A DNA stretch of 30,571 nucleotides, from positions 1 through 30,571 of the IMG/VR virus record IMGVR_UViG_3300032897_000022. One strand, written 5' to 3'. Below are positions 1 to 22,180 of this stretch, in pieces (the stretch's first letter is position 1; each line of letters starts with the position of its first letter). Below the pieces are notes generated by a model, which searched no databases, was not told where the DNA came from, and saw only the letters and a program-made list of their open reading frames with translations. The stretch comes from a virus. The position numbers and the translations under genes were made by a program.

Positions 1-700
1 TCGGAACGCCGTACCATGTGACGGCTGAAGTCAGATAGCACCCTCCCGGAGGCTTGGGAAAATAGAGCACTGCCGCCGTGGTCCTGCCGGAAGCCAGAGC
101 CAGCGCAGCAGTCTGTGCCGCAGCAATCGCGTCGTGGTCATCGGTTGAGCAATCGCCTTTAGCTTTGTAGGGCGGAGCCATCACGTTGATTTGCGTGTTG
201 ACGCTCAGATTGATCGAACTCGACCCAAGGACGCTGCTGCCATCCGAAGGATAGATGGCAACCTGATTGGTGGTTCCTGCTCCGACCGCACCGCCGCCTC
301 CATTTCCGACCTGGAACGGAAACGGCCCCGCAGGACCGTAAGGCCCGGTAACCACATAGGCGTAGGTTCCGGGCGGTATCCATGCGCCCATGTTGCCGGA
401 TGGCTCTGCCTGATTCGTGCAGGTGCCTCCAAGCGCCGGAGTCAGCTGCTTCGAGGTCGAACATGCTACCGAGCCTGTTGAATTGCTATAGGTGGTCGCA
501 AGCGTGGTACAGGCCTTGACTCCTACCGTCCATGTGGCGCATATCTGCACAGTGGAAAAGGGAATGGCAATAACGGGCGGCATCTGGCCGGGTGCGGGAT
601 AGCGGACGTTGGTGGTATAGACAGGCCAGTCCCAGCGCACCACGGTGGTCTGGGCGCTCAGGACGGCGGAAGATAACAGAAGCAGAGCAAGGCGTCTCAT
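1..700 (-). CDS. Tailspike/pectate-lyase-fold fibre protein, partial (C-terminus beyond the window)
   Basis: The frame is open from an ATG at 700 to the left edge, about 233 codons with no stop. Residues 1-17 look like a Sec signal peptide (MRRL, a Leu-rich core, then LSAQ). Residues 18-130 repeat the N-terminal domain of the neighbouring tailspike, including VVRWD, PFSTVQICATW, the LTPALGG-C-TNQ block and GAW. A Gly/Ser linker follows. Around residues 180-222 the pattern KGDCSTDDHDAI...VLYFPKPPGGCYLTS matches the start of pectate-lyase-superfamily beta-helix proteins, common in phage tailspikes that bind or degrade surface polysaccharide. The start lies directly after the stop of the upstream gene, so it is the last visible gene of the late operon. 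The family call is good. Enzymatic activity cannot be judged because the catalytic part is missing. Confidence 0.8.
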   Translation of the reverse strand, partial: MRRLALLLLSSAVLSAQTTVVRWDWPVYTTNVRYPAPGQMPPVIAIPFSTVQICATWTVGVKACTTLATTYSNSTGSVACSTSKQLTPALGGTCTNQAEPSGNMGAWIPPGTYAYVVTGPYGPAGPFPFQVGNGGGGAVGAGTTNQVAIYPSDGSSVLGSSSINLSVNTQINVMAPPYKAKGDCSTDDHDAIAAAQTAALALASGRTTAAVLYFPKPPGGCYLTSAVTWYGVP

Positions 701-2839
701 CTAGTCCACCACCCAGTTCGTCCCATTACAGTAGGCTCGAACGTGATAAGTGCTGCTACCCGCAGTGATCGTCGCTCCCCATGTCCCGGTGTTGGAATCG
801 GTAAGGTTAACGATCAATCCTTCTGTACCCGCATTGCAGGTCGGCAAGGCAGTAAAGATGTTCAGGCCAGCCTGTGAGCCATTGTAGGAACCAGACTGCA
901 CGATCAGCCCCGAATTGGTCAGATTGGCATTCGCGTCATAGACAGGTGCATGGTTCTGGGTGCCGGTGTTGTCGCTCATCTGCGCATAGGCGGCATTGCC
1001 ATGGGGAGCGGGGCCGTTGGTCACGTTGCCATTGCCATCGAAGACGCTGAAGTTGCCGCTGGTTCCTGTGTTATCGCTGGCCTGAACATTAGCAGCGTTG
1101 CCATGAACGCCAGTCAGGGCTTGGCTGGCTCCCAGTTTCAGCGCACTCAATGCCGCGCCTGCCCCGGTCCAGGTCATATAGTCACTGGAATCGCGGCCTA
1201 TCTGGTCCCATCCCGTCCCGGCGTTATTCTTCCAGCCGAGCAGACTGGAGCCGTTCATATACGTGCTGGTAACCCCGGAGACAAAGTTGTATATCTCAAT
1301 CCCGGCACTGCTCGTATTGGAAATCTGGTTGAGGTTGTCGGAATAGATGTCGTGAACCGTCAGGTAACTGAATGCTGTGTTTGAGAAAAACGCCGAGCCT
1401 GAACCAACCCCGGTGATGTACATATTGGAAAATGAAGCCATGGTGTCCGAGTTTGCCGTATTCATCACCGAAGCATTGGTGGCCCCGTTCATGTTGACGT
1501 AGCCTCCGGTCCACGCGATATTTCGCGCCTTGTTCGCAGTGTTTGGAACAGAAATAATTGTGGACCCAGTGCTATTCAGTTCCGTATAGACATCGGTCAG
1601 GAATATGGACTGGGCGCTATTGATGAGGAAACTAGGCCCGGAGCCCTGATCCTGCTCGACGTTACCTCCCTGAAACTTGGCTACATTGACGCTCCCAAGA
1701 CCCACTGCGCCAAGTTGGACGTTGGTGGTCGAAGAGTTATAGATGTGGCAGTCATTGCATTCAATCGTATTCGCGCTGATCGCGTCCAGCCCGATTACCT
1801 GATATGCAATGCGAACATCTTCAAGGGTTGTATCGATGACCACCGACCCGCTCGCTCCAAGGCGCACACCCGCCACCGAGAACGGTGATTCCATGACAAT
1901 ATGGCGAAGTACGATATTGTACTGGCCGTTGTAGATGTCGATGCCTACTGTGCCGGTTCCCGTGTTTGTCAGCGAGAAGTTCTCCAATATTGAATGGCTG
2001 GATGCGCCGTTCGTACCGACTCCGTTTACGGCGATTGCCGCAGATGCGCCTCCTGTCCACTGCAAACAGGTTCCCGCCCCGCTGAAGCCGGAATTGCTGC
2101 CGCTCAGATGTATTGGGCGGTCAATCACGATCTGCGTGTGGTACGAATAGCACCCGGACACGGATTGCGGAATGAAGATCGCGCCGCCGGTAGAGGGCAG
2201 CGCCTGAACTGCTGCATTCACCCATGCGCCCATGTCGGAACCCGAACACCACGATGGAGCGGACGGTCCCGCACACTGGGCAGGGTTATAGACGCCATTG
2301 ACACTACCGGCGCTGATCGATGTCCAGTTGCCGATGTCGCCTCCCGCCCCTACCTCGAATGGATACGGCCCGAAGACGCCGTAACTGGTCGTCAGCACAT
2401 AGGCATACGCACCAGCATCGATCCACACTCCCATGCTTCCCGCGCTGTCTACCTGATTGGTGCAGGCTCCTCCCAAGGCAGGCGTCAGTTGCGTGTCAGT
2501 CGAGCATGGAGTCCCGCCGGTGGAGTCGGTATAGGTCGTGGCCAGCGTATTGCACGCTGCTACACCGGTGGTCCATGTGGCGCAGATTTGCACCGTCGAG
2601 AACGGCAGAGCGAGTACCGGCACCATCTGTCCCGGCTGGGGAGAAGCGTTATTGGTGGTATAGGCTCCGAGATCCCAGCGCACCACGGTCTGCCCGAAGG
2701 CTGACCCGCAAAGAAAGAGAAGCGCAATGGCGATAGCGAGACCGCGCCATGTGCGTCGGGGCCAGTCATGCTCGAAATATATTTCGGCCAGCGAATAGAG
2801 AACGCGAAGCAATACCAGCGCCAGTGCAAGAAGGATCAT
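701..2839 (-). CDS. Tailspike-like protein with beta-helix body and N-terminal membrane/Sec leader
   Basis: 712 residues. The start overlaps the previous stop as ATGA at 2836-2839. Residues 1-19 and 33-46 are two hydrophobic stretches, the second ending in GSAFGQ like a signal-peptide cleavage site. Residues 51-165 are the domain shared with the next gene. From about 170 to 560 the sequence is Gly/Asn/Ser/Thr-rich with short strand-turn repeats and a GGAIFIPQ signature, typical of a right-handed beta-helix. Two tandem 34-residue repeats (HGNAA..Q.SDNTGT...DxNxN.TN) lie at 579-612 and 613-646. The last 48 residues (LPTCNAGTEG...WVVD) resemble C-terminal domains of phage tail fibres. The likely role is host recognition or glycan degradation. 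The export-type leader is unusual for a virion protein. No catalytic residues are assigned. Confidence 0.8.
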   Translation of the reverse strand: MILLALALVLLRVLYSLAEIYFEHDWPRRTWRGLAIAIALLFLCGSAFGQTVVRWDLGAYTTNNASPQPGQMVPVLALPFSTVQICATWTTGVAACNTLATTYTDSTGGTPCSTDTQLTPALGGACTNQVDSAGSMGVWIDAGAYAYVLTTSYGVFGPYPFEVGAGGDIGNWTSISAGSVNGVYNPAQCAGPSAPSWCSGSDMGAWVNAAVQALPSTGGAIFIPQSVSGCYSYHTQIVIDRPIHLSGSNSGFSGAGTCLQWTGGASAAIAVNGVGTNGASSHSILENFSLTNTGTGTVGIDIYNGQYNIVLRHIVMESPFSVAGVRLGASGSVVIDTTLEDVRIAYQVIGLDAISANTIECNDCHIYNSSTTNVQLGAVGLGSVNVAKFQGGNVEQDQGSGPSFLINSAQSIFLTDVYTELNSTGSTIISVPNTANKARNIAWTGGYVNMNGATNASVMNTANSDTMASFSNMYITGVGSGSAFFSNTAFSYLTVHDIYSDNLNQISNTSSAGIEIYNFVSGVTSTYMNGSSLLGWKNNAGTGWDQIGRDSSDYMTWTGAGAALSALKLGASQALTGVHGNAANVQASDNTGTSGNFSVFDGNGNVTNGPAPHGNAAYAQMSDNTGTQNHAPVYDANANLTNSGLIVQSGSYNGSQAGLNIFTALPTCNAGTEGLIVNLTDSNTGTWGATITAGSSTYHVRAYCNGTNWVVD

Positions 2840-4494
2840 TGCTCTTCCTCATCTCGCTTTCTATTCAGTTGCAGCGCCGGAGCAACCAGAGGACGCAATC
2901 CCTGAGCCTTGTTGAATCCGCGAGCCAGCCCCATCTGGCCTTCCGGGGAAGCGATCAGTTCAGGAGCCAACACGCCCGTTACCCCGCCAGCAATCGCGCC
3001 GGGAACGCCGCCCTCGCGGTATCCTCCGGCGGCTCCAATTCCGCCAAGAGTGAGAGCGCCAGTGTGAGCACCGAAGCGGCCTAGTATCCTTTGGCCTGTA
3101 GGTGCCATGCGGCTTTCGCGGTCAGCGTTGCGCAGAACTTCGATCAGGCTTGAAATCTTCTGATTTGTGTGAGCAGCAGAAGGAACCAGCCTGTCAAGTT
3201 CTCGGTCAAGCGCTCCATAAGCCCCACGCCCAGCGCGAGTTGCTTCCTCGTGAATGTTCGGATTCCAGTTCAAATGCTCATCGCTGAATCCGCGCTTCAA
3301 ATCAAGCAACCGTCGCGGCGTCACGTTTTCGGGAATCGGTTCCCCGGAGACGCGGCCACGATGCAAGAAATCGCTCATCTCCCCAAGCTGTCCATGAAGC
3401 GTTCCGGCTTCCTCATTAGCCGCTTTGCCCATCGCACCGGCGATCACGTTGCGGGCAGGGCGAAGTGAAGCATTAGGATTGGCTTCTGTCGTGGGAGGGA
3501 TGGATGCACTCATCTCAGGGCGGCGCAGCAGCGTTCCCATCCTCGTAGTGACCTGTTGAGGCTTCTGAAGCGGCGTAACCCTGCCCGATAGTTCCGGGTG
3601 CTCTGAGCCGCTGAGATAGTGCGGATTGACGCCAGGGTATTCGGAAATCGGGGCCATCGGATTCCCTGAACGAGGCTCCATCGGCTCTTCCGGCTTGACT
3701 TCGGCATTAAATGCCATGGGACGCATCTGTGGATTACGAGGAGGCGGAGCCGCATGGAGCGGAATCTCTTCTCTCGGCGGCTGGAGGAATCCGGCAATGC
3801 GCGGAGCAGGACGGACGCTGGCCTCATTCACATGGCTTTCGAGATCGTTCATCAACCCACCCATGCTCTCGCGTCCACTTGAAAGAACCGACTCAGGCCG
3901 TACGCCGCTGGTCAGATCAAGCGCCGCCCGCCCCGGCGTCTTCCCGAATCCTCTTTGCGGTGCTCCGATGTGCAGCGCCGATTCAGCCAACTTGGGTGCA
4001 GCCGCCCGCATCCCTGCCCCCACTGCTTCTCCAGCCGCACCGCCCGCCGCGCCAACACCCGGAGTGCCGCCCTGTGCCTGATTGACTTCCTCCGCCATCA
4101 GCGACCGCACGGCTGGCTTGATCAGGGGTGTGAGGCGACCGATATTGCCCACCTTTTCCGCCACGCCTTCCTCTGCACCGCCGGGAAGGAAGAATTCCCC
4201 AACCTGTTCGGCTCCCTTGCCGATACTCTCGGCTGTGTTCTTGGGCTTGAAATAGGATTGCTGCTGCTCTTCAGTTGGCACAGGCATGTGCAGAGCCCGC
4301 GCAGCCGCGTCGGGAAACATCATCTTACCGATATTGTTGGCTGTCGAGGCGAACCCCTTGCCGACGCCCGTAAACGTGTCGAGTGCCGCGTTGCCCGCCT
4401 TCTGAAGCAGAGACGGTTCCTGCGTATCCGTAGTCGGTAGAGCGCCAGGAGCAGAAGCCAGATCAGCGTCGGTGAATTTGCCCTTAGTTGGCAT
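2836..4494 (-). CDS. Putative internal virion (ejection-type) protein
   Basis: 552 residues from the ATG at 4494 (MPTKGKFTD). That start has GGGAG five bases upstream and an 11-base overlap with the preceding gene, so the 16 in-frame codons further upstream are probably not translated. The protein is Ala/Gly/Pro-rich. It has amphipathic N-terminal stretches, a proline-rich centre with repeated PxxRxAGFL/PPREE-type segments, and a Gly/Ala-rich hydrophobic stretch near the C-terminus (residues about 485-520) that could interact with membrane. No enzyme motif is seen. Its position between tail-hub and tailspike genes, next to two other low-complexity Ala/Gln-rich proteins, is where podoviruses encode proteins ejected with the DNA. 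The function is inferred from context and composition only. Confidence 0.55.
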   Translation of the reverse strand: MPTKGKFTDADLASAPGALPTTDTQEPSLLQKAGNAALDTFTGVGKGFASTANNIGKMMFPDAAARALHMPVPTEEQQQSYFKPKNTAESIGKGAEQVGEFFLPGGAEEGVAEKVGNIGRLTPLIKPAVRSLMAEEVNQAQGGTPGVGAAGGAAGEAVGAGMRAAAPKLAESALHIGAPQRGFGKTPGRAALDLTSGVRPESVLSSGRESMGGLMNDLESHVNEASVRPAPRIAGFLQPPREEIPLHAAPPPRNPQMRPMAFNAEVKPEEPMEPRSGNPMAPISEYPGVNPHYLSGSEHPELSGRVTPLQKPQQVTTRMGTLLRRPEMSASIPPTTEANPNASLRPARNVIAGAMGKAANEEAGTLHGQLGEMSDFLHRGRVSGEPIPENVTPRRLLDLKRGFSDEHLNWNPNIHEEATRAGRGAYGALDRELDRLVPSAAHTNQKISSLIEVLRNADRESRMAPTGQRILGRFGAHTGALTLGGIGAAGGYREGGVPGAIAGGVTGVLAPELIASPEGQMGLARGFNKAQGLRPLVAPALQLNRKRDEEEQ

Positions 4495-5941
4495 CAAAGC
4501 TCCCGTCCGGGTGGATTGCGCTGATGACCTTTTGCGAACCATCCTTCAATGTGACCGTCTGGCCAACATAATGCCCGGTGCGTTCAAGTTGCGTCAGCTT
4601 TTGCCGCGCTTCCTGCTCCGCCCTGATGACTTCGCCCCGGTCGGTTGCGCCGTTGATCTTGTCCAGTGCCTCGTTGCTGATGTTCAGCTTCTCCTGTAGG
4701 CGCGTCTTGGCATCCTGAATGATTCCAACCAGCTGTTGCTGCTGGGTCTTGGTTAGCGAGCCCTGACCCTCTATCTTGCGGACGAATCCCTCAAAATCAC
4801 CCTGCACGCCACGGGCTCTGGCAATCAACTGCAACTCCGGCATGGTGATACGGACGCCTGTGCCCTGACCGGACACGAGAGCAGTCAGCGTCTTAGGAAT
4901 ACCGAGAGCCTGAGCTTCGGCATTGCCCTTCACCAACTCCATCGCCTCATCCATCTTGTCGAGTTGGTTATTGCCCTGAGTGACCGAGGTTTCGAATGGC
5001 TTCGCGAGACGGGCGGCAACCTTGTCTGCCTCGTTGAGACCGGCATTCACGTTGACCGTGGGAGCCTTCTCATAGGGAATGGGGTTCGTTATCTGCTTGC
5101 CGGTCGCATCGAAGTATTGCTTGGTATTGGGATCAAAGGTCGCAGCGTAGGGCTTGCCCTTGGCATCCATCAGACTGACGTGCTCCGCTCCCTTTTCCGC
5201 TGCAGCCTTTTCGTGAGGCTGCAATGGTTGCCCTTGGAATGTGAGAGGCAGCAATTCATGGGTACGCGGATTCAGCGCGAATATTCCCTGATCGGTTTCG
5301 ATATGCTGCCATGAATCCTTGGGATTTTCGAGCGCTTCGGCGCGAGCATTCGCTTCCCCTGTCTGAGCCTTGCGAAGCTCTACCTCCGAAGGAACCGCCG
5401 CAGCCTGTGCGGTTTCAAGCGCCCCCTGTGCCTGTTTCTGCTGATTCTCTGTCTCGCCTTTAACGGCACCCTGGAGCGCTCCCATCCTCAAACCATGCTG
5501 TACGGTAGATCCCGGCACCAGTGCGCCGATTCGCGGAGCCGCAGCGCTCAGACCGATGTCAGCCGCAGTTGCGGGAATCTGGGCCAGAGCGCCCAGCACC
5601 CGTCCCGCTACCGGATGAGCCTGCCCAAAGCCTGATTCATGAATCTTCGAGTACACCGATTCAAGCGCCGGTTTCTTCGCTGCTTCCTGCTGCAATGCCT
5701 GCTGATCCCCGGCGAGCGTTCCGCGAGGCTGGGGCGGATTGGTCACCTTGGGCTGCGCGGTACTCATTCCTGGCACTGCAGGGGCGGCAGAAGGCGCTTG
5801 CATCGATGGCGGAGGGGGTGCCATCGTGGGCGGAGTCTGAGACGCCTGATGGAACTGCATCAGCGCTTGTTTGGCGTGCGGAGATAACGAGTTCAACTCA
5901 TCGACTACCGGATTAGTGAGTGCTCCAACGAGTGCTCCCAT
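4484..5941 (-). CDS. Putative internal virion (ejection-type) protein, Ala/Gln-rich
   Basis: 485 residues, starting one base after the stop of the upstream gene (TGATATG arrangement). The first 90 residues contain a Pro/Met/Gln-rich linker (PPTMAPPPPSMQAPS). The middle is Ala/Gln/Glu-rich and probably coiled-coil (KQAQGALETAQAAA, then VELRKAQTGEANARAEAL). A folded segment follows around residues 200-280 (GIFALNPRTHELLPLTF, then KQYFDATGKQITNPIPY). The C-terminal 200 residues are predicted helical. No catalytic motif is visible. Composition and position in the tail/ejection block suggest a virion protein delivered with the genome or a tail-interior component. I do not recognise a named family. 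Confidence 0.55.
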   Translation of the reverse strand: MGALVGALTNPVVDELNSLSPHAKQALMQFHQASQTPPTMAPPPPSMQAPSAAPAVPGMSTAQPKVTNPPQPRGTLAGDQQALQQEAAKKPALESVYSKIHESGFGQAHPVAGRVLGALAQIPATAADIGLSAAAPRIGALVPGSTVQHGLRMGALQGAVKGETENQQKQAQGALETAQAAAVPSEVELRKAQTGEANARAEALENPKDSWQHIETDQGIFALNPRTHELLPLTFQGQPLQPHEKAAAEKGAEHVSLMDAKGKPYAATFDPNTKQYFDATGKQITNPIPYEKAPTVNVNAGLNEADKVAARLAKPFETSVTQGNNQLDKMDEAMELVKGNAEAQALGIPKTLTALVSGQGTGVRITMPELQLIARARGVQGDFEGFVRKIEGQGSLTKTQQQQLVGIIQDAKTRLQEKLNISNEALDKINGATDRGEVIRAEQEARQKLTQLERTGHYVGQTVTLKDGSQKVISAIHPDGSFDAN

Positions 5942-5942
5942 A

Positions 5943-6515
5943 TCATGCGAACCATGGTGCTGAAGTAACGGCCTTGGCCCCTACGCCAAGGGTTGCGTTG
6001 GCGGCATTCGAAGCAAGCTGCTGCCAGAAGGAAGGCTGGGCGTTGCTGGCGATATTGAGTGCCTGATTCGAGAGACCCAACGCATTCTCGCCTTCGCCAA
6101 GTTCGGTGCCGTAGAGTCCCTGCAATCCATGCAGGCCAGCCTGCTGCTGCTGGTTCTGGAGAGCGGCATTCTTAACTTCAGTGCCGACCGCCGCATTCGA
6201 CAGGTTCTCTCCAGCCGAGCGCACCCCCTGCCCGATAGCAGCCTTGGCTCCGCCAGCATTCTTGGTCCGCGTGGCATACAGTCGTCCCTGCCCTACCGCA
6301 CCAGCAGTAGAGCCACCGGCAGACTGCTGGCCAGCCGTATTGATGACGGCCTTGGCCTGCGGAGTGAAGCCCATGGGATGAGCGGCTTCGGCTTGTAAGG
6401 TGGGTTCGAGACCGCCGTAGATATTCGAGGCTTGCGCGGTTAGCTGATTGGAGAGATTCTGGCCGATTCCGTAATTCTTGAAAGCGTCCTTCTTAACTCC
6501 CGTCCCTGATGCCAT
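5943..6515 (-). CDS. Small Ala/Gln/Gly-rich virion protein, putative
   Basis: 190 residues; the ATG at 6515 abuts the stop of the GNAT-like gene and GGGAGGG lies upstream. The protein is almost free of charged clusters and rich in Ala, Gln, Asn and Gly (SNQLTAQASNIYGGL, NQQQQAGLHGLQGLYGTEL). This alternating small-residue/helical character is typical of ejected internal proteins and of membrane-inserting virion peptides. No enzyme motif or signal peptide is present. It sits between the GNAT-like gene and two larger proteins of similar composition, so the three may form one internal complex. That is inference from context, not a family match. Confidence 0.5.
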   Translation of the reverse strand: MASGTGVKKDAFKNYGIGQNLSNQLTAQASNIYGGLEPTLQAEAAHPMGFTPQAKAVINTAGQQSAGGSTAGAVGQGRLYATRTKNAGGAKAAIGQGVRSAGENLSNAAVGTEVKNAALQNQQQQAGLHGLQGLYGTELGEGENALGLSNQALNIASNAQPSFWQQLASNAANATLGVGAKAVTSAPWFA

Positions 6516-19766: not shown

Positions 19767-19933
19767 CATTTCCCCCTGTAGAGCTTGCCCTGATATTCCT
19801 TCTTGCCTGCCTCGCCCTTGCGCTTTTCACTCAGCATGATGGCGACTGCCTGCTTCTGACTGTGCACTGGCGTGGAACCACCGGACTTGAGCTTGCCAGC
19901 CTTCCACTTCGACATGACCTCATTCCACGGCAT
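19766..19933 (-). CDS. Tiny DUF6496-like protein
   Basis: 55 residues, read by hand from the ATG at 19933, which overlaps the glycosyltransferase stop as TGATG. Its own stop overlaps the next start in the same way. The sequence pattern VMSKWKAGKLKSG...PVHSQKQAVAIMLSEKRKG matches the small basic family I know as DUF6496 (VMHEFK.G.LKSG....V.SRKQAIAIALSEA). The function of the family is unknown; it is short, basic and helical. The double overlap with both neighbours is strong evidence that the gene is translated. Confidence 0.7.
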   Translation of the reverse strand: MPWNEVMSKWKAGKLKSGGSTPVHSQKQAVAIMLSEKRKGEAGKKEYQGKLYRGK

Positions 19934-20619
19934 CAGGCCACCTTCATCGGAAAGGTTGAGGGATCAAGGCCGTAGGCTTTGCCTTCTGAGTCAACGTGAA
20001 TCGGCAATACCCCGCCATGGGCCACGATGCGGTAACCCGCAGAGAGCACCTTCTGGCAGAAATACAGATCCTCTGTCCCGCCGCGATGGGAGATGGGAAT
20101 CACTTTCTCCCCGATCATGGCCGTCTCCCCGACCGGAGCCTCGTTCGGTTCCAAAAACCACGGCTTCGGCAGTTTCCCGAATATTTCGGTCTTGATCAGC
20201 ATTGCGCCCGTACCGAGACCTGCACAGTCGAAGACCTCGCCCATCTTCCAATTCCAGAACGCGCCGTCTCCGATCTTCTTGAAGACAATCGGCACCGATG
20301 GCAGTTCCTTGGTGCAATAGATCCCGCCGCAGACCATGATCATCGGGTCTTTCTCGATCTCGTAAGCGAGATATTTGAGCGTGGTGTTAGGACAGATGGT
20401 GTCGTCATCGAGGAAGAACAGGTATTTCGCGTTCGCCTCCACCGCTTTTTCAGCCAGCCGTTCGCGATTCCCTGCGCGGTCTAATCCGGTCTCAACCATC
20501 CACGTCACAAACGAACCCATCGGGGCGTTCAGCCCGAGATTAAGCAGCGAGAGGGACCAGCCGATATTGACAGGCCTGCCGCTCGATGCAATGCCGATCA
20601 GGATGCCGGGTACGCTCAT
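19933..20619 (-). CDS. Glycosyltransferase, GT2-like (GT-A fold)
   Basis: 228 residues from the ATG at 20619, chosen because ATGA overlaps the upstream stop. The longer in-frame extension to 20694 runs far into that gene. The GT-A core is visible: ILIGIASSGRPVN at the start, RAGNRERLAEKAVEANAKYLFFLDDDTICP with the metal-binding DDD at 71-73, CGGIY near 98-101, an acceptor-side GTGAMLIK near 136-143, and GGTEDLYFCQKVLSAGYRI near 180-198. It would transfer a sugar from a nucleotide-sugar donor in the cytoplasm. It is coupled to a second glycosyltransferase and, through it, to a virion-type gene. The acceptor is unknown; a phage structural protein is one candidate. Confidence 0.8.
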   Translation of the reverse strand: MSVPGILIGIASSGRPVNIGWSLSLLNLGLNAPMGSFVTWMVETGLDRAGNRERLAEKAVEANAKYLFFLDDDTICPNTTLKYLAYEIEKDPMIMVCGGIYCTKELPSVPIVFKKIGDGAFWNWKMGEVFDCAGLGTGAMLIKTEIFGKLPKPWFLEPNEAPVGETAMIGEKVIPISHRGGTEDLYFCQKVLSAGYRIVAHGGVLPIHVDSEGKAYGLDPSTFPMKVA

Positions 20620-21278
20620 GCGATGCTTGCCTCGTACTTCTGAAACAACTGATCCGTCGGCCAGTGGCCGTTGGCATGGATGAACAGCGGCCATGTCTGG
20701 TGAATGGTGTTGTAGGGACGGCCATGCCGGAACTCTAGTTCCTCGTAGCCTTTGAAGAGGCAGAAGAACAGGCTGGTGAGCGAATCAATGCAGAAGAAAT
20801 CCGCGCCTTCAGCCAACAGATAATTCATGAATCCCTGGTCCACATAGTCGGGGTTATAAAGAGGATGGGCTTCAATCAGCTTGCACATGGCTAGAAACGA
20901 ATCCGGGGTTCCGGCCAATAACCCGCCATTGACGAAGCGCCACGGGCCACGGTCAGGTATAGCTGGACTGATATCGGGGTCAGGCCAGCAGTTCTTCTCC
21001 GCCGCCCATACCACCCTGCCTCTCGGAATGCTGGCAATCAGTTCAGCCTTGGTGCCATAAAACAGCACGTCCCAGCCATCGCTGATGAGCAGGAACTCGT
21101 AGTCCATGAACTGGTTGGCGAGCCTGCGAATCCACCTCAGCTTGTTCGCTAAGGTAAAGGATTGTCCATCGATGCTTTCAAGGTTGACGGTGATGCCTTC
21201 GGAGGATAGCCGACGGATGTTCTCCGTCAGCATCCCCTCAACCCGAGAGACCGCCATCGATACCACAACATCCTTCAT
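20616..21278 (-). CDS. Glycosyltransferase resembling the PLOD/procollagen-type GT domain
   Basis: 220 residues from the ATG at 21278, where TAATG overlaps the upstream stop. Motifs in order are LLISDGWDVLF (metal-binding D67 and D70), VVWAAEKNCWPDPD (residues 89-102), WRFVNGGLLAGTPDSFLAM (113-131), VDQGFMNYLL (146-155), FFCIDSLTSLFFCL and PLFIHANG (197-204). This series matches the glycosyltransferase domain known from procollagen galactosyl/glucosyl transferases and its bacterial and viral relatives. It probably works in the cytoplasm as there is no signal peptide. Being directly coupled to a virion-type protein upstream and a GT2 enzyme downstream suggests sequential sugar addition to one acceptor. 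The acceptor is inference only. Confidence 0.8.
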   Translation of the reverse strand: MKDVVVSMAVSRVEGMLTENIRRLSSEGITVNLESIDGQSFTLANKLRWIRRLANQFMDYEFLLISDGWDVLFYGTKAELIASIPRGRVVWAAEKNCWPDPDISPAIPDRGPWRFVNGGLLAGTPDSFLAMCKLIEAHPLYNPDYVDQGFMNYLLAEGADFFCIDSLTSLFFCLFKGYEELEFRHGRPYNTIHQTWPLFIHANGHWPTDQLFQKYEASIA

Positions 21279-22180
21279 TAGCTGAGTCCCGAGATCACCT
21301 TGTAGTTCACTGCAATATTGCCCGAACACCCCGTACCACCCGCAAAGGCCGCAGTTGCGTTGGTATAGTAAATGGCCTTGTTCAGGTAATTCGAGGCCGT
21401 CGAAGCCGCAGCCGCGCCCGCCACCTTCTGAATCGTGTTTGCGGCAAGTCCCGTATAGACCGAGGCTGCGATGGTGGCCGTGGCCGGGTAAGTGGTCGCC
21501 GTCCCGTAGGACAACTGGGCCGCTCCGCCCGCTGTGAAGGCGTTGGTGCCGAAAATCAGATCGACAACCGCATCCTGAATGTCGATGATGGTTCCCGTAC
21601 CTGCCGCCGCCACGATCTGCACCGCCGTGGTGTAGGCATTCTGGATCTGCGCCAGCGTCAACGGAACAACCAGACTCTGCACCGGGCCGACAGCAACGCG
21701 GTTATCGAGGATCGATACTCCCACCGGAACCGTCGCGGCATTGAGGATGGTGGTTGTCCCGCCGAGCAGCGTCCAGTAGGCATCGACGATGACCGTTCCC
21801 CCGCCATAGGTGCTGGCATAGTTCAGCGCTTCCTGAAGGCCGACCGTGGCGGAGCGAATCTGGTCGCCATTGCCATGGAGGTAAGTGAAGGTCGCGGTGA
21901 CGGTCGTGGTTCCGTACTGGGTCGGAGTCGAAGCCGAGACCGCGCTCGGAGTGACCGCCTCCCAGTATGCTCCAGCGCCCACTTCAATCTTGGCATTGGT
22001 GTTGAGGGGGTTGACCACGGTGCCGTCGCCAAGGGTGATGTAGCCGAAGGCGACTGTCAGGGTGCCAGACCCGGTGGCGTTGGGACCATTGGTCGCAACC
22101 ATGGCTGATACGGATTTGTTGATTCCGTAGGCAAAGTCTGCGGCGTTGAACTGCCCAGCAAAACGAGAGGGGTAAGCCAT
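21278..22180 (-). CDS. Putative virion surface or decoration protein
   Basis: 300 residues; AGGAG lies seven bases before the ATG at 22180. The composition is typical of exposed phage proteins: Ala, Thr, Gly and Ser dominate and charges are rare. The N-terminal half includes a beta-rich region and the stretch SATVGLQEALNYASTYGGGTVIVDAYWTLLGG (residues 110-141), which resembles the first rung of beta-helix fibre proteins. A C-terminal domain with Ala-rich helices ends in TGCSGNIAVNYKVIS. It lies upstream of, and is coupled to, the two glycosyltransferases, so it may be their target. A head decoration or fibre role is likely but not proven. Confidence 0.55.
   Translation of the reverse strand: MAYPSRFAGQFNAADFAYGINKSVSAMVATNGPNATGSGTLTVAFGYITLGDGTVVNPLNTNAKIEVGAGAYWEAVTPSAVSASTPTQYGTTTVTATFTYLHGNGDQIRSATVGLQEALNYASTYGGGTVIVDAYWTLLGGTTTILNAATVPVGVSILDNRVAVGPVQSLVVPLTLAQIQNAYTTAVQIVAAAGTGTIIDIQDAVVDLIFGTNAFTAGGAAQLSYGTATTYPATATIAASVYTGLAANTIQKVAGAAAASTASNYLNKAIYYTNATAAFAGGTGCSGNIAVNYKVISGLS

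Follow-up and report, generated by a model that had tools for sequence, protein, structure and literature searches.

Tailed phages are assumed to mount their spikes on the particle inside the cytoplasm, and the known podophage tailspikes assemble from there. Two adjacent tailspike-type genes that both open with a hydrophobic, signal-peptide-like leader therefore raise the question of whether such proteins may be exported and, if so, how they would still meet the virion. The genes, here called spikes A and B (table 1), lie in a window that spans the entire record of an uncultured virus (30,571 bases, 56% GC), in which minus-strand podovirus-like genes include matches to terminase, portal and capsid proteins, and in which Rfam and tRNA scans were empty. 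The stretch between portal and terminase (19933-21329) also weakly matches a glycosyltransferase and a 2OG-Fe(II) oxygenase in PHROG.

Table 1. Positions of the spike genes, their parts and related features (positions without a contig handle are those of the window).
Feature	Position	Strand	Remarks
Spike A precursor	701..2839	minus	712 aa; open reading frame, ribosome-binding site GAGGAAGAG, syntenic with the spikes of relatives
Spike A leader, residues 1-49	2693..2839	minus	two hydrophobic segments, predicted cleavage AFG/Q
Spike A shared domain	2345..2692	minus	four Cys; predicted mature N-terminus Q50
Spike A variable body	701..2344	minus	8 Cys; without family match
Spike B precursor	2..700	minus	233 aa within the window, which ends inside the gene; follows the spike A stop directly
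Spike B leader, residues 1-16	653..700	minus	MRRLALLLLSSAVLSA followed by Q; predicted site LSA/Q
Spike B shared domain	305..652	minus	four Cys
Start of spike B body	2..304	minus	about 100 aa visible; weak pectate-lyase-like match
568-aa upstream gene	2836..4542	minus	overlaps the spike A start; marks the syntenic place
Leader-bearing FAYG-motif members	L021:1762-2460, L026:1471-2763, L030:751-2394, L055:6886-8148		even mature Cys numbers
Standalone miniprotein genes	L059:3995-4150, L053:3998-4150, L054:4001-4153, L055:4001-4153, L057:3989-4129, L058:3989-4129		directly before distal tail genes

Leaders across the spike family

Relatives were reached by way of the terminase, a tail gene and growing domain profiles, direct scans with spike B alone or with A and B together having returned none. 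By way of terminase relatives (62-64% identity), a 44.7-kb phage was reached that carries the shared domain at the corresponding position, and the resulting set comprises 23 distinct spikes with the shared domain on 20 viral contigs, all of them metagenomic. The phages form an uncultured family, the source of which is probably soil. Searches of named phages by tblastn with the domain, the portal and the spike bodies gave nothing or weak matches; the sialidase match in HCTV-5 has no leader.

Gene order is constant across the contigs wherever they are long enough to check, the spikes being syntenic with terminase, portal, capsid and nozzle-like genes. The spike is the last gene of the tail module and, in relatives, stands ahead of the lysis genes, being followed by a leaderless phage lysozyme (PF00959) in G006 and by cell-wall hydrolases in G005 and G007; in all three, no spike-like gene besides the leader-bearing one was seen where the tail module ends. 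Several more leader-bearing genes are found downstream of the spikes in relatives. Two further genes deserve mention: a leader-bearing distal gene (L045:3930-6146) that has a GDSL esterase domain and also weakly matches the tailspike C-terminal domain PF24146, and a small head-module gene (L024:5533-5829) opening with a textbook Tat-like motif, MNRRSFLK.

The preliminary description had placed hydrophobic leaders on both spikes, and both are indeed present with their AFG/Q and LSA/Q sites. Signal peptides were judged by rule (an n-h-c leader with a small residue at -1), and a leader with a hydrophobic core is found in 23 of the 23 spikes that have the shared domain, with Gln at +1 of the predicted cut in every one of them and Ala or Gly at -1 in 22, the residue being Thr in G018. 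The short leaders differ in sequence (mean identity 35%, versus 47% in the domain), as expected if selection acts only on the general character of the leader. Among 175 orthologues of other structural genes, the hydrophobicity threshold was passed by six, five of them narrowly and one by virtue of a genuine leader, which belongs to the second protein family considered below. As for the start of spike A itself, its ATG overlaps the stop of the upstream gene as ATGA, with a good ribosome-binding site ahead.

Export by the Tat route was considered and rejected, the RR of spike A being KK in G006 and the short leaders having no RRxFLK; the same holds for a lipoprotein reading, as there is no lipobox and the LFLC ahead of the Cys in the spike A leader does not qualify as one. 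From these sequence features, Sec export of the spikes and their cleavage by signal peptidase are strongly implied.

The shared domain, its bodies and its cysteines

The two spikes were thought to have in common a Cys-containing domain of roughly 110 residues, and this is borne out by 67% identity over 111 residues with four Cys in each. The suggestion that it serves as a swappable adaptor also finds support in relatives, where the body behind it is pectate-lyase-like in G005 (PF12708, E 2e-15) and sialidase-like in G007 (BNR_2, E 4e-18), so that a swappable N-terminal module preceding unrelated bodies is supported at the level of sequence comparison. The bodies of spikes A and B had been taken for unrelated beta-helices; that they are exchanged is confirmed, but the beta-helix is unproven for spike A, the body of which has no Pfam or PHROG match, and the PF12708 match in the body of spike B (E 0.0084) falls below the curated cut-off. 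A C-terminal beta-barrel translocator, which would mark an autotransporter, was not found in spike A by Pfam.

An AlphaFold2 model of the spike A domain built from 23 sequences (pLDDT 82.7, pTM 0.77), which supersedes an earlier AlphaFold model from 9 sequences (pLDDT 64), predicts a beta sandwich. In a fold search of a viral library, carried out with the 9-sequence model, phage tail spikes, fibres and pectate lyases made up most of the named matches. In the PDB, a sequence search with the shared domain detected no similarity, and the fold search gave Z scores of 6.2 and 5.9 for the podophage tail proteins of Pan3 and Pam1, which rank among the top matches, and of 5.0 for those of P22 and Sf6, CnaB-/transthyretin-like domains scoring about the same. 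The modelled fold is, in other words, compatible with a virion anchor, its scores being tied with those of CnaB-like domains of secreted proteins.

The distribution of cysteines bears on the compartment in which the spikes would fold. Four Cys are found in the shared domain of 22 of the 23 spikes; two of the Cys columns are invariant, and L049 is without both Cys of the other pair. Of the 17 complete mature spikes, 15 have an even Cys total (binomial P 0.0012, in a test that treats related spikes as independent) and two an odd one; among portal, terminase, nozzle and tail282 orthologues, totals are even in 16 of 40. Just upstream of the spikes, three gene families (568, 485 and 190 aa; window 2836-6515), possibly ejected internal virion proteins, contain at most one Cys in each of 39 proteins, the 568-aa gene being cysteine-free in 13 of 13 orthologues. 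A second protein family, recognized by a FAYG motif (window 21278-22180), exists in both leaderless and Sec-leader forms, the eleven leaderless members having 0-3 Cys and the four leader-bearing ones 4, 2, 8 and at least 4 mature Cys. Likewise, Cys are absent from the leaderless adaptors of L053-L055, and four occur in the homologous, leader-bearing domain of L057. Host-facing proteins of these phages are not exported without exception, since L053-L055 have such a leaderless adaptor-like protein in their distal tail region; in a profile comparison, the shared domain and this adaptor family gave a probability of 7%, which is not significant. The four-Cys domain, the even totals and the near-cysteine-free upstream families support the folding expected of exported spikes. 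Disulfide-bonded folding outside the cytoplasm, which would follow from spike export, can be considered likely on this pattern.

A two-segment leader and its standalone counterpart

The leaders of spikes A and B had been counted as two independent ones. Both are real, but that of spike A is a 49-residue, two-segment unit, of which only the second segment aligns with the 16-residue leader of spike B; the preliminary description, right about there being a leader, did not recognize in it a fused two-segment membrane miniprotein. Its layout comprises a first hydrophobic segment, a charged loop (EHDWPRRTWRG) and a second hydrophobic segment with a Cys. The same type of leader recurs in G006, G012, G013, G015, G021, L048 and L049, with conserved loop positions Y, E, E, P and T and a conserved Cys in the second segment, and it is under purifying selection (pN/pS 0.18-0.43 over 32 codons, with synonymous sites near saturation).

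When spike A is compared with G012, G013 and G021, the leaders are 63-71% identical and the domains 32-39%, and the domain of spike A is closer to that of the short-leader spike B than to theirs. This contrast in identity indicates that leader and spike act like two distinct modules that meet at the cleavage site. Indeed, the two-segment unit is found as a separate gene of 46-51 codons in L053, L054, L055, L057, L058 and G008, and there this gene and the stop codon of the 568-aa orthologue overlap. Of the four distinct standalone forms, three have their last residue precisely where the fused form has its -1 position (15 residues after TWxGL), which points to a boundary there, and the fourth is four residues shorter.

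On the simplest reading of the fusion, the second segment doubles as the signal peptide of the spike, and one cut would yield a small membrane protein and a spike, so that spike A may be a two-product precursor. Being encoded beside the spike, the miniprotein may take part in export, holding or exclusion.

Fate of the exported spikes

The reading that we favour, with a probability of somewhat under 0.6, is that the spikes are Sec-exported, signal-peptidase-cleaved and disulfide-bonded proteins, composed of an adaptor and an exchangeable body, which join virions at lysis. Spikes A and B would be tailspike-type proteins made as Sec pre-proteins; the leader would take each of them across the inner membrane, signal peptidase I would cut before Gln, and the spike would fold in the periplasm with disulfides, two pairs of which, expected to be C37-C47 and C63-C77 in domain numbering, would lie in the shared domain, the presumed N-terminal adaptor, behind which enzyme or receptor-binding bodies can be exchanged. 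Exported spikes would have to meet the virions after lysis; most likely, they would wait outside the cytoplasm and attach once the phage lysis enzymes open the cell. P22 tailspikes can join finished heads in vitro, which makes late spike addition mechanically possible. Given export, the chance that the mature spike binds virions at lysis is about two in three. In spike A, the leader would in addition be the two-segment membrane miniprotein, and one cut by the host signal peptidase would release two products; the full proposal of a precursor for a 49-residue membrane protein and a disulfide-bonded tailspike added post-lysis, with particles finished outside the cytoplasm, is put forward tentatively and should be regarded as doubtful.

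The same evidence of export would also be seen if the spikes were not virion proteins and acted as secreted or surface-held depolymerases, or as exclusion factors, which would strip glycan, at or before lysis, from the infected cell or from neighbouring ones. There is precedent for this in WceF, a bacterial tailspike-fold enzyme with a Tat signal peptide (PMC7949094), and in phages of Porphyromonas gingivalis, genes of unknown function are already known to encode Q-rule signal peptides (PMC10367356); the further leader-bearing genes downstream in relatives and the CnaB-like rows of the fold search fit as well. However, no spike-like gene other than the leader-bearing one is seen at the end of the tail module in G005, G006 and G007, a conserved N-terminal domain followed by an exchanged body is the pattern of virion-anchored receptor-binding proteins, and the FAYG-motif family has both leaderless and leader-bearing forms, all of which makes a role away from the particle possible but rather unlikely.

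Capture of a host secreted protein had been suggested earlier; that the spikes are such cargo, the N-terminal domain being a CnaB-like host domain with its own signal peptide, is improbable. The predicted fold is indeed close to CnaB-like domains, and the habit of placing Gln at +1 recurs in a candidate host lineage. This Gln following the signal peptidase I site is known as the Q-rule of Bacteroidetes (PMC5837995, without mention of Acidobacteria). On the plasmid pACIX901 of Granulicella tundricola (L061-L065), most signal peptides have it too, about 28 of 33 by hand count over five stretches, although the habit has been described as Bacteroidetes-specific. Acidobacteriota thus fit as well as Bacteroidota as the host, the 56% GC is presumably compatible with Acidobacteriota also, and the host is probably a member of that phylum. 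Against capture, 84,980 genomes of bacteria and archaea were scanned with patterns, at limited sensitivity, and yielded neither a relative of the domain nor one of the capsid protein, nor a host genome with a related phage; the spikes, unlike a cargo gene, also occupy a constant syntenic position in those contigs that extend to it.

It is still a little less probable that the leader stays uncut, tethering the spike to the inner membrane or riding with it into the virion: the two hydrophobic segments of spike A could form a stable hairpin, but a cleavage-like site followed by Gln is kept throughout the family, and the standalone miniproteins, in three of four distinct forms, stop where the cut would fall. 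Finally, a start-site error, already judged unlikely in the preliminary description, is excluded by the presence of the leader in 23 of 23 spikes and its rarity among the 175 other orthologues, and it has, together with a chance hydrophobic N-terminus, a negligible probability, given that homologues starting downstream of the leader were looked for and amounted to none of 23 and that the spike A leader is under purifying selection.

With Sec leaders throughout the family and matching Cys patterns, late assembly outside the cytoplasm, or depolymerases that are secreted and free, can be tested directly. If the proposal is true, disulfides and a cut N-terminus, possibly a pyroglutamate, are to be expected in the receptor-binding proteins of such phages, features that matter for structure prediction and recombinant production, and with the fused miniprotein a host processing enzyme would divide a phage precursor in two.

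Searches of an open-access library found no description of a Sec signal peptide on a phage tailspike. The closest known systems are the podovirus tailspikes (P22 gp9, Sf6 gp14 and those of the cyanopodophages Pam1 and Pan3), which are likewise encoded by the last gene of the tail module and have an N-terminal beta-sandwich, a fold predicted for the spikes described here, before a large exchangeable body; to our knowledge, they have neither a signal peptide nor conserved Cys pairs in the N-terminal domain, whereas the present spikes carry a leader in every case. WceF of Pantoea stewartii (PMC7949094) combines a tailspike fold with an export signal, as is proposed for our spikes, but it is the product of a bacterial gene with a Tat signal and no phage tail module, the present spikes being of Sec type. 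Bacteroidetes Q-rule proteins (PMC5837995, PMC10367356) also have Gln as the first residue behind the signal peptidase I site, although the phage genes among them have not been described as tailspikes and the host in our case is probably acidobacterial. Finally, Lys44 of fOg44 and the SAR endolysins (PMC6116005) are, like the proposed pre-spikes, tailed-phage proteins that use the host Sec system, but they are lysis enzymes, neither structural nor receptor-binding.
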